From: Thermotogaceae bacterium
GTDB lineage: Bacteria > Thermotogota > Thermotogae > B21-G9 > HyVt-16
Direction of reading: 5' to 3'
DNA length: 34,190 bases
Assembly: GCA_029981435.1 (NCBI GenBank)
Contig: JARRBB010000015.1
Coordinates: 1 to 34,190 of the forward strand
The notes under the pieces were generated by a model. The model was not told where the DNA came from and searched no databases. It worked only from the letters and a program-made list of their open reading frames with translations. Of the stretch, positions 2,238-4,157 are shown in pieces. The position numbers and the translations under genes are program-made. Every line of letters begins with the position of its first letter. Positions within the stretch are counted from its first letter, which is position 1.

Positions 2238-2343
2238 ACTTTGTGATAAAGCAAAGTAGAAGCCACCCGGCTTCTCACCTTGGGGTATCGACCACCAAGG
2301 TTAATAGTTTTGAAGGTTTGAAATGCGGGTGGTTTTTGCCCGC
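2238..2343 (+). promoter_or_regulatory. Structured infC leader, candidate L20/IF3-operon autoregulatory RNA
   Basis: The leader contains consecutive helices: ACTTTG (2238-2243) with CAAAGT (2252-2257), GAAGCC (2259-2264) with GGCTTC (2269-2274), and ACCTTGG (2277-2283) with CCAAGGT (2295-2301). An alternative long-range pairing joins CCACCCG (2263-2269) to CGGGTGG (2326-2332), followed by TTTTT (2333-2337), the form of an intrinsic terminator. A third helix, GCGGG (2325-2329) with CCCGC (2339-2343), would exclude that terminator. Family knowledge: infC-rpmI-rplT operons in Bacillus and relatives carry the L20 leader, in which L20 binding promotes premature termination. Position, downstream genes and mutually exclusive pairings fit that idea, but membership of the named RNA family was not tested. 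Confidence 0.65.
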
Positions 2344-2370: not shown

Positions 2371-2892
2371 ATCAAGGAACTGAATCTCAAGAGAAATGAA
2401 GAGATAAGAGTACCAAAGGTTAGATTAGTAGATGAAAATGGTCAGATGATAGGAATTATGCCCACCAACAAAGCACTTGATATTGCCCGGGAAAAAGGTT
2501 TAGATCTTGTTCTGGTGTCGCCGAATACTGATCCGCCAGTTGCAAAAATAATGGATTTTGGAAAGTACAGGTATGAAGCAACTAAGAAATCCAAAGAAGC
2601 TAAAAGTAAGCAGAAAAAGACTCAGTTAAAACAAATGAAGTTCAGGCCAAAGATCGATGTTCATGACTATCAGACTAAATTGAAGCATTTGAGAAGATTT
2701 CTTGAAGAAGGGCATAAAGTTAGAGTCACAATCATGTTTAAAGGAAGAGAGATGGCATTCACCGATAAAGGTAAGGAGATACTTGAAAAGGTTGCCAACG
2801 ATCTCAAAGATATAGCTGAAGTCGAAGGGAGTCCAAGATTAGAGGGCAGAGATATGTGGTTGAATCTCAGACCGAAAAGTCAGAAAAATTGA
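2371..2892 (+). CDS. infC: Translation initiation factor IF-3
   Basis: IF-3 binds the 30S subunit, prevents premature 50S joining and discriminates against non-standard start codons. The N-terminal domain (from RNEEIRVPKVRL) carries the characteristic stretch ending in PPVAKIMDFGKYRYE. A Lys-rich linker and the C-terminal domain with the HDYQTKLKHLRRFLEEGHKV block follow. The preferred start is ATC at 2371: the strong Shine-Dalgarno AAGGGGTGG (2357-2365) stands five bases before it. The only conventional in-frame start, GTG at 2362, lies inside that Shine-Dalgarno with nothing suitable upstream. AUU/AUC starts are the classical autoregulatory feature of infC. With ATC the protein is 173 residues; with GTG it is 176. 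It heads the infC-rpmI-rplT operon. Confidence 0.95.
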   Translation: MKELNLKRNEEIRVPKVRLVDENGQMIGIMPTNKALDIAREKGLDLVLVSPNTDPPVAKIMDFGKYRYEATKKSKEAKSKQKKTQLKQMKFRPKIDVHDYQTKLKHLRRFLEEGHKVRVTIMFKGREMAFTDKGKEILEKVANDLKDIAEVEGSPRLEGRDMWLNLRPKSQKN

Positions 2893-2914
2893 GCTAACGA
2901 GGAGGTAAATAAAA

Positions 2915-3115
2915 ATGGCGAAGCTGAAAATGAAAACTAAAAAGAGTGCCAAAAAGCGTTTCAAAGTCACCGGAAGTGGTAAGATAATGAAAAATCACTC
3001 TGGAAGACGCCATTTTAATGAAAAGAAAAGAGGTAACAGAAAAAGACATCTGAGACATAAAGAAGTTGTCAGTGACGCTGATAAGAAGAGAATAAAGAAA
3101 ATGCTCGGAATATGA
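2915..3115 (+). CDS. rpmI: 50S ribosomal protein L35
   Basis: A 66-residue, very basic protein of the usual L35 length. The N-terminus [19 protein letters not shown], the HSGRRHF motif and the KKRIKKML ending are typical. A near-perfect Shine-Dalgarno (GAGGAGGT, ending 8 bases before the ATG) lies in the 22-base gap after infC. It is the middle gene of the conserved infC-rpmI-rplT trio and assembles into the 50S subunit. Confidence 0.97.
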
Positions 3116-3142
3116 TTTGAACTATGATCAGGAGGGATCAAC

Positions 3143-3514
3143 ATGAGAGTAAAACGTGCAGTAAACGCTAAAAAGAAAAGAAAGAAGTTTTTAAAGGCCG
3201 CAAAGGGCTACAGAGGTGCACTCAGCAGAAGATATAAACTTGCAAAGCAGCAATATTACAGATCAGGTGAATATGCATACGCTGGCAGGAAAGAGAAAAA
3301 GAGAAATTTCAGAAAATTATGGATAACAAGGATAAATGCACTCGCAAGACAAAACGGATTGAAATACAGTCAATTCATACATGGATTGAAACTTTCCGGA
3401 GTCACTATAAATAGAAAAATGCTGGCTGATCTTGCGGTTAACGATCCTGCGGCTTTTACAAAATATGTTGAAATAGCCAAGGAAGCTCTGAATGTAGAAG
3501 TGTCAGCAAAATAA
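3143..3514 (+). CDS. rplT: 50S ribosomal protein L20
   Basis: The 123-residue protein starts [20 protein letters not shown], with an arginine/lysine-rich extended N-terminus, and continues into the globular domain ([20 protein letters not shown], residues about 53-72) typical of L20. It binds 23S rRNA early in 50S assembly. In several phyla it also represses its own operon through the infC leader, which fits the structured leader at 2238-2343. A Shine-Dalgarno (CAGGAGGGATC) precedes the ATG. It is the last gene of the operon and is followed by a strong terminator. Confidence 0.97.
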
Positions 3515-3531
3515 GATCTTGGTTTTAAAAT

Positions 3532-3567
3532 AAAAAAAGCCCTATCTGAATGATAGGGCTTTTTTTA
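3532..3567. terminator. Bidirectional intrinsic terminator between rplT and coaE
   Basis: A 9-bp stem (AGCCCTATC at 3538-3546 with GATAGGGCT at 3552-3560) has a 5-base loop. It is followed by a T run on the + strand and preceded by an A run (3532-3538) that acts as the T run on the - strand. It lies between the converging ends of rplT and coaE and should terminate both transcripts. Confidence 0.93.
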
Positions 3568-3569
3568 TT

Positions 3570-4157
3570 TTAAACCATACTTTTAAGTAATTTCAGAAGC
3601 TTTTTTGCCTGTTCCAACGTCTTATTTATATCTCCAGAGGTATCTATTACATAGTCAGCGAGTTCTAACCTTTTTTTTCTATCCATCTGATAATTGACGA
3701 TCCTTTCCGCCAAGTGAAAAGGTATTTTGTTTCTTTCGGCAACTCTTTTTATCTGTACCTCTTTTGGTACATCGGTAATCACAATAAAGTCGAAATCTTT
3801 CGTCAACCCAAGCTCAGGAATTATAGCACCCTCAACAACTACGATATTTTCATCATTCAATTCCCTTATTTTTCTCCACAACATATTTATCATTTCTGGA
3901 TGGACAATTTCGTTCAATTTTTTGAGATTTTCTTTGGAATCAAAAGCTATATTTCGTAGTTTTTTTCTGTCTATGCGGTCATCTTTTAAAATTTCTCTCC
4001 CAAAAACTTCCACAAGTTTTTTCTTAACATTTTCCAGTTCAAGTGTTTCATGCCCAACTTTATCAAGATCTATAACGGTGATACCGCTTTTTCTAAGAAA
4101 TTCTGCCACTGTCGTTTTACCTGTCCCCGCGCCTCCTGTCAATGCTACAAGCAACAA
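3570..4157 (-). CDS. coaE: Dephospho-CoA kinase
   Basis: The enzyme phosphorylates the 3'-hydroxyl of dephospho-CoA, the last step of coenzyme A synthesis. The 195-residue protein opens with a P-loop (TGGAGTGKTT, residues 7-16). It has the conserved VIDLDKVGHE region (about 29-38), the VVVEGAIIPE segment (Walker-B-like strand) and the VAERNKIPFHLAERI lid region with its Arg. The start is a TTG six bases after the stop of the upstream radical SAM gene. A GGGAG Shine-Dalgarno lies inside that gene's last codons, so translation is probably coupled. No ATG start fits the frame. It is the last gene of the leftward operon. Confidence 0.95.
   Translation of the reverse strand: MLLVALTGGAGTGKTTVAEFLRKSGITVIDLDKVGHETLELENVKKKLVEVFGREILKDDRIDRKKLRNIAFDSKENLKKLNEIVHPEMINMLWRKIRELNDENIVVVEGAIIPELGLTKDFDFIVITDVPKEVQIKRVAERNKIPFHLAERIVNYQMDRKKRLELADYVIDTSGDINKTLEQAKKLLKLLKSMV

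Follow-up and report, generated by a model that had tools for sequence, protein, structure and literature searches.

Does the leader of the infC-rpmI-rplT operon of this Thermotogaceae bacterium contain an RNA switch that responds to ribosomal protein L20 and, if so, which of its alternative pairings ends transcription? The question arises from a prediction made on the contig analyzed here (the window, 34,190 nucleotides), which placed four short complementary strings in front of the operon. Direct reading of the sequence finds all four at their predicted positions, namely CCACCCG at 2263-2269, CGGGTGG at 2326-2332 followed by TTTTT at 2333-2337, GCGGG at 2325-2329 and CCCGC at 2339-2343. The first of these covers the loop of a hairpin (2258-2275), which we call P1, together with the 3' part of its 5' arm, and the leader as a whole runs in the order AAGN, P1 carrying strand A, CACC, helix H2, linker, strand B, strand C and U tract. 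The parts of the leader and its surroundings are as follows.

2028-2056, + strand: promoter-like TTGACA-17-TAAAAT located 5' of tRNA-Val (consensus scan, 11 of 12 matches)
2069-2143, + strand: tRNA-Val(cac), found by ARAGORN
2160-2235, + strand: tRNA-Lys(ctt), found by ARAGORN
2248-2357, + strand: whole leader as matched by the L20 leader family RF00558 (Rfam, 58.7 bits); our model R1 scores 59.8 bits at 2251-2307, with the window itself among the R1 training rows
2254-2256, + strand: AAG of the core, invariant among the 42 leaders of alignment A1
2258-2275, + strand: hairpin P1, AGAAGCC-ACCC-GGCTTCT; 98.7% of cells paired, four of six pairs changed on both sides
2259-2269, + strand: switch strand A, GAAGCCACCCG, putative 5' strand of the antiterminator, overlapping P1; 11-bp match to B, with a permutation control
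2277-2301, + strand: helix H2, ACCTTGG/CCAAGGT; 81.0% of cells paired, five of seven pairs changed on both sides
2325-2336, + strand: strand B, GCGGGTGG plus TTTT, putatively serving the terminator as 5' strand and the antiterminator as 3' strand (terminator scan, strand comparison, folds)
2337-2353, + strand: strand C, TGCCCGC at 2337-2343, and the U tract TTAATTTTTT at 2344-2353 (terminator scan)
2359-2373, + strand: Shine-Dalgarno-like GGGGTGG at 2359-2365 and probable infC start ATC at 2371-2373 (start-codon call)
2371-3514, + strand: infC (to 2892), rpmI (2915-3115) and rplT (3143-3514); NCBIfam TIGR00168, TIGR00001 and TIGR01032, all over their cut-offs

The Rfam covariance model RF00558 (L20_leader) matches 2248-2357, directly 5' of infC-rpmI-rplT, over model positions 1-127 with 58.7 bits, which equals the gathering score of 58.7 exactly and therefore sits right at the limit. 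The corresponding E-value is 1.1e-11 in a 151-base search and 3.3e-11 in a search of the whole own genome; the latter flags the match as over the cut-off, and a gathering-mode Rfam scan of the whole window, for which the score is right at the cut-off, does not list it. The prediction of an L20-type attenuator with mutually exclusive pairings in this leader is thus borne out by the family match and by the three-strand design described below; its suggestion that the leader is a divergent Thermotogota version holds as to the family, and the word divergent is weakly founded since the match reaches the Rfam cut-off. Sixteen further RF00558 matches in the own genome at E <= 1 (best 33.2 bits) are all below the cut-off and were rejected as leaders, and R1 has one match in the own genome at E <= 0.01. 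Folding of 2234-2338 gives z = -4.69 relative to dinucleotide shuffles (0 of 200 as good), and folding of 2234-2366 gives z = -3.29 (1 of 200 as good). At the other end of the operon, a long symmetric terminator flanked by A and T runs (3529-3570) lies behind rplT and faces an opposite-strand dephospho-CoA kinase gene. It carries weak Rfam matches on both strands; such matches at about 3445-3600 are far below the cut-offs and were rejected.

Conservation was assessed in 103 Thermotogota genomes. Of these, 99 have an IF3 match (G001, G012, G025 and G073, where IF3 had no match, were left out), and the region upstream of infC was read in all 99. A match to RF00558 at E <= 0.001 is present in 62 of the 103 genomes, and only the own genome (1/103) passes the Rfam cut-off; most Thermotogota members differ from RF00558 in scoring below it, so that routine annotation with the public model will miss the leader. 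The core pattern AAGN-P1-CACC-H2 occurs in 97 of the 99 upstream regions, and within 240 nt it is seen in 96 of the 99 real sequences versus 3 of 1980 shuffled ones. The two regions in which the pattern is absent belong to G086, where the infC contig is cut and R1 finds the leader on another contig, and to G002. In the latter genome (locus L200, family f3) a degenerate leader precedes infC, and neither the core pattern nor R1 has a match on the contig; this lineage is possibly losing the switch. The automatic search did not find H2 in G045 or G052. A terminator-like hairpin follows the core in 97/97 leaders (T's being required by the finder, and the terminator of G098 being set by hand).

The helices of the core also covary. 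For alignment A1 we chose 42 of the 97 leaders by hand, with at least one per genus and two rows trimmed by hand. In these 42 leaders the combined covariation score of P1 and H2 is 0.327 versus 0.161 in shuffles (0/500), a control that can be inflated by related rows, and slid versions of the two helices score at most 0.160. The number of further pair types is 21 versus 18.3 in shuffles, a value that 46 of 500 shuffles reach, and the inner two pairs of H2 are mostly unpaired in the relatives. Two hairpins and a conserved junction with covariation are therefore present in these leaders, and lack of covariation in relatives, which had been named in advance as a reason to give up the L20 reading, is not what the alignment displays. 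At E <= 0.01 the model R1, built from Thermotogota alone, matches 101 of the 103 genomes; 96 have an E-value of 5.1e-13 or lower, with 41 of those 96 being training rows. R1 misses the leaders before infC in G005 and G006, though the core pattern finds both; G005 is itself a training row, and the R1 search filters can lose matches.

Three pairings compete in the leader: 1) P1 itself, 2) A-B, in which strand A (2259-2269) pairs with CGGGTGGTTTT (2326-2336), and 3) B-C, a hairpin at 2325-2343 identified by the terminator scan. An intrinsic terminator and a mutually exclusive rival pairing are accordingly present in the sequence and in the predicted fold. If B is shared between the rivals A and C, a change in B should be accompanied by a matching change in A, and this is what is seen. 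The three-strand design recurs with other letters in the relatives, where A/B pairs include CCACCCG/CGGGTGG, CCATTCG/CGAATGG, GTCCGCC/GGCGGAC, GTCACCC/GGGTGAC and GCGCCCG/CGGGCGC, among others. When B strands are dealt at random among genera, using one genome per genus (37 of 97) and re-optimizing the register each time, the best P1-B helix has a mean of 14.3 (sd 0.55, maximum 16.6) versus 18.9 for the real strands (0/5000). A swap carried out genome by genome gives a milder result, with a B strand from a foreign family being as good for the window in 5% of swaps and, as family means, in up to 38% (family f6).

The assignment of roles to the two main pairings is where we part from the original prediction. 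It took the A-B helix followed by TTTTT as the terminator and GCGGG/CCCGC as the pairing that disrupts it. In the predicted A-B fold GAAG of P1 pairs with the U's that follow B, whereas B-C has a free U tract, TTAATTTTTT, behind it; consequently, A-B is best read as the antiterminator and B-C as the terminator, and the polarity first proposed is most likely wrong, with the two roles swapped. The opposite assignment, with A-B and TTTTT terminating and B-C opening the way to infC, can point to the TTTTT directly after B in the window, to the length of the A-B helix and, under a looser count of at least four T's among the 6 nt that follow the B stem, to 38 of 97 leaders. TTTTT within 10 nt 3' of B, however, is found in only 9 of the 97 relatives. 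Among the GC-rich hairpins behind the core, B-C is the strongest in 95/97 leaders even when no T-run is required, and the strongest hairpin is T-rich on its 3' flank in 85/97 leaders against 7/97 on its 5' flank. In addition, A-B would close a loop of more than 50 nt, and the Rfam model marks B-C as the hairpin preceding the U tract. We consider the opposite assignment very unlikely.

Of the predicted folds and energies, some speak for B-C as terminator and A-B as antiterminator and some against. RNA that ends before C is predicted to adopt the A-B fold. For RNA extending to base 2343 the two states are close, with A-B at -36.3 and P1 plus B-C at -34.1 kcal/mol at 37 C, and at -17.8 and -16.1 kcal/mol at 65 C; that is, A-B is the better state in the window as long as C is free to pair elsewhere. 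When the rival state is computed with C kept single-stranded, the window favors the terminator state by 2.5 kcal/mol at 37 C and 1.1 kcal/mol at 65 C, and so do 95/97 leaders at 37 C and 84/97 at 65 C, with the window among them. Because the terminator state is favored energetically, the open state probably depends on A-B folding first, and on these folds the action of L20 probably depends on holding P1 before B emerges. The sequence of events may then be pictured as follows. RNA polymerase would pass tRNA-Val and tRNA-Lys and make the AAGN-P1-CACC-H2 core and then B. With no spare L20, B would invade P1 and pair with A as the antiterminator, C would be left with no partner, and transcription would continue into infC-rpmI-rplT. 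When L20 exceeds free rRNA, it would bind the P1/H2 junction and hold P1 shut with A hidden, so that B would pair with C, forming a hairpin that, together with its U tract, would end the transcript before infC.

The longest stretch folded, 2234-2366, has a minimum free energy structure that corresponds to neither state alone: it contains B-C, and A is paired with the Shine-Dalgarno sequence (CCACCC at 2263-2268 with GGGUGG at 2360-2365). This structure is what one would look for if control were mainly translational, with strand A or the terminator region hiding the Shine-Dalgarno sequence, or with IF3 acting through the AUC start codon, and with L20 having no role in transcription. The match of P1 to its own Shine-Dalgarno region, in a test region that left out the Shine-Dalgarno sequence of the window itself, is slightly above that to dealt strands (12.3 vs 11.7, reached by 183 of 5000). 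The infC start was called ATC, ATT or ATA in 89 of 97 relatives by a simple rule that leaves some picks ambiguous, and in the window infC most likely starts at the ATC listed above rather than at GTG 2362 inside the Shine-Dalgarno sequence. Such non-standard starts are the kind on which IF3 acts in E. coli. L20 of E. coli is described, in the available part of the source, as acting on translation (PMC10931766). Nevertheless, the terminator-like hairpin present between core and infC in 97/97 leaders would be superfluous for a translational switch, the match to the Shine-Dalgarno region, in the region so tested, falls far short of that between A and B, and control of the start codon by IF3 would be an added layer compatible with an attenuator. 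Given the hairpin and the weaker match we reject control by translation only, which we regard as unlikely.

The setting of the leader among tRNA genes has a bearing on where its transcript begins. tRNA-Lys(CTT) lies 3-64 nt upstream of the leader AAG in 97 of 99 regions (3-10 nt in family f8), the remaining two regions both being cut by contig ends; in the window it ends 18 nt before the core. A consensus scan places the nearest upstream promoter-like site before tRNA-Val and finds none between tRNA-Lys and the leader, and the next one listed on the + strand is at 2960; overall, the scan is no richer than shuffles (29 sites vs 26.7). In many Thermotogota regions the gap between tRNA-Lys and the leader is too small for a promoter. 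Since there is little room and no promoter-like site after tRNA-Lys, transcription probably enters the leader from the tRNA genes, so that it shares a transcript with tRNA-Val and tRNA-Lys; the site at 2028-2056 is likely the start of the leader transcript, and the attenuator probably ends the tRNA transcript as well. A diguanylate cyclase (GGDEF) gene occupies 385-1992, just upstream of the tRNA pair. The closeness of tRNA-Lys could also mean that the hairpin is a plain terminator of the tRNA-Val/tRNA-Lys unit with unregulated read-through into infC. A plain terminator, however, would have no need of the conserved AAGN-P1-CACC-H2 core or of an A strand that tracks B, and on these two grounds we reject this explanation, whose probability we judge to be slight indeed.

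Taken with these alternatives in mind, the leader is in all likelihood a member of the RF00558 family of L20 leaders and an autogenous transcription attenuator of infC-rpmI-rplT, through which an excess of L20 very probably halts transcription of the operon that encodes it. The computed support consists of the family match, the conserved core, the covariation of P1 and H2, the matched letters of A and B and the terminator; from it we infer L20 binding, termination, the direction of the response and co-transcription with the tRNAs.

Wiring of the switch appears to vary within the phylum. In family f6 P1 has a short loop without a particular match to B (9.3 vs 9.7 with foreign strands, five genera), and B is predicted to pair with the 5' side of H2 instead, for example as CCCGCC/GGCGGG. 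Before C is made, the mean predicted B-H2 pairing in f6 is 0.79 (0.32-0.98) versus means of 0.00-0.17 in other families, with H2 as the main partner in 16/16 genomes, and the letters of f6 are too uniform for a strong test of this match. The predicted folds of G053 and G054 (family f7) also favor H2 (0.72), and in f8 part of the B pairing uses the 3' arm of P1 (0.29). We tentatively propose, at somewhat less than an even chance, that one L20 site has been combined with differently wired attenuators, using P1 in most lineages and H2 in f6 and in G053/G054, and that the unit hangs on tRNA-Lys such that L20 would also decide where the tRNA transcript ends.

Comparison with known systems supports the family assignment. 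The leader shares with the RF00558 consensus a core AAGN-P1-C-[A/G]CC...GG and has the terminator as its last helix, and the same model aligns here over its full length at the cut-off, before the same operon as in B. subtilis. According to the portion of the source available, L20 binds the H1/H2 junction of the B. subtilis leader, the terminator forms and expression is repressed, and infC operon promoters exist in that organism (PMC6097659); the Thermotogota leader, likened to it through the Rfam model rather than by direct alignment, differs in having tRNA-Lys just upstream with no promoter-like site between. L20 leaders are also named in Parvimonas, Veillonella and Streptococcus (PMC7160235, as far as the accessible text goes). 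R1 matches just 5' of infC in six of seven loci from a class that we take to be Negativicutes (39.7 to 18.6 bits; not in L075), whereas 15 loci of other phyla give no match at E <= 0.05. All six positive loci have terminator-like hairpins, and L121 is the only one in which an A-B match is clear by eye. That a model built solely from Thermotogota finds Negativicutes leaders indicates that the Thermotogota leader belongs to the Firmicutes family.

L20 leaders in Thermotogales are themselves already published: a 2013 paper describes L20 motifs there and raises a possible horizontal transfer from Firmicutes, with the same family and the same phylum as here, and the available part of that paper describes them without sequence, switch strands or tRNA context (PMC3766115). 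The main text of a T. maritima transcriptome paper, in its accessible part, discusses leader sequences and leaves L20 unmentioned (PMC3636130). In E. coli the regulator and the target genes rpmI-rplT are the same, but control is translational and, by the available account, involves a long-range pseudoknot and a second hairpin (PMC10931766), whereas here a terminator precedes infC. A candidate L20 leader of Deltaproteobacteria, likened by description only, has another scaffold and belongs to another lineage, and the available part of that source states that two G-C pairs and an AA dimer are common to L20 leaders and the rRNA site (PMC7247131). The 23S rRNA of G091 and G067 reads GGTGGCTAAGTG...AGCCACC (AAGTGG in G091), and the leader has AAGNRG...CACC...GGT, in an order permuted relative to 23S, as compared by eye on the letters only. 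In the assembly of the own genome (G000; 97 contigs, 93.7% complete) a search for 23S rRNA gave no match. Group I introns (RF00028) lie inside 23S rRNA genes of two relatives, at 2482-3187 (-) of L217 in G091 and at 2481-3178 (-) of L219 in G058. For the H2 wiring and the tRNA-Lys linkage, our searches of the open-licence literature, which covered some of the possible wordings, returned no report. Judged by sequence, this would be a true L20 attenuator of which the H2 wiring and the tRNA-Lys linkage are the less expected features.

The presence of the leader before infC in 97 of 99 Thermotogota regions contrasts with the view, expressed in the available part of PMC6097659, that the L20 leader RNA is narrowly distributed to Firmicutes. 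The matched switch strands form a good set for following how an expression platform is rewired around a constant protein site and, if the proposed differences in wiring are true, each of the two helices at the L20 site is able to act as the switch. The linkage to tRNA-Lys, if it reflects co-transcription, would couple a tRNA transcript to the control of a ribosomal protein operon.
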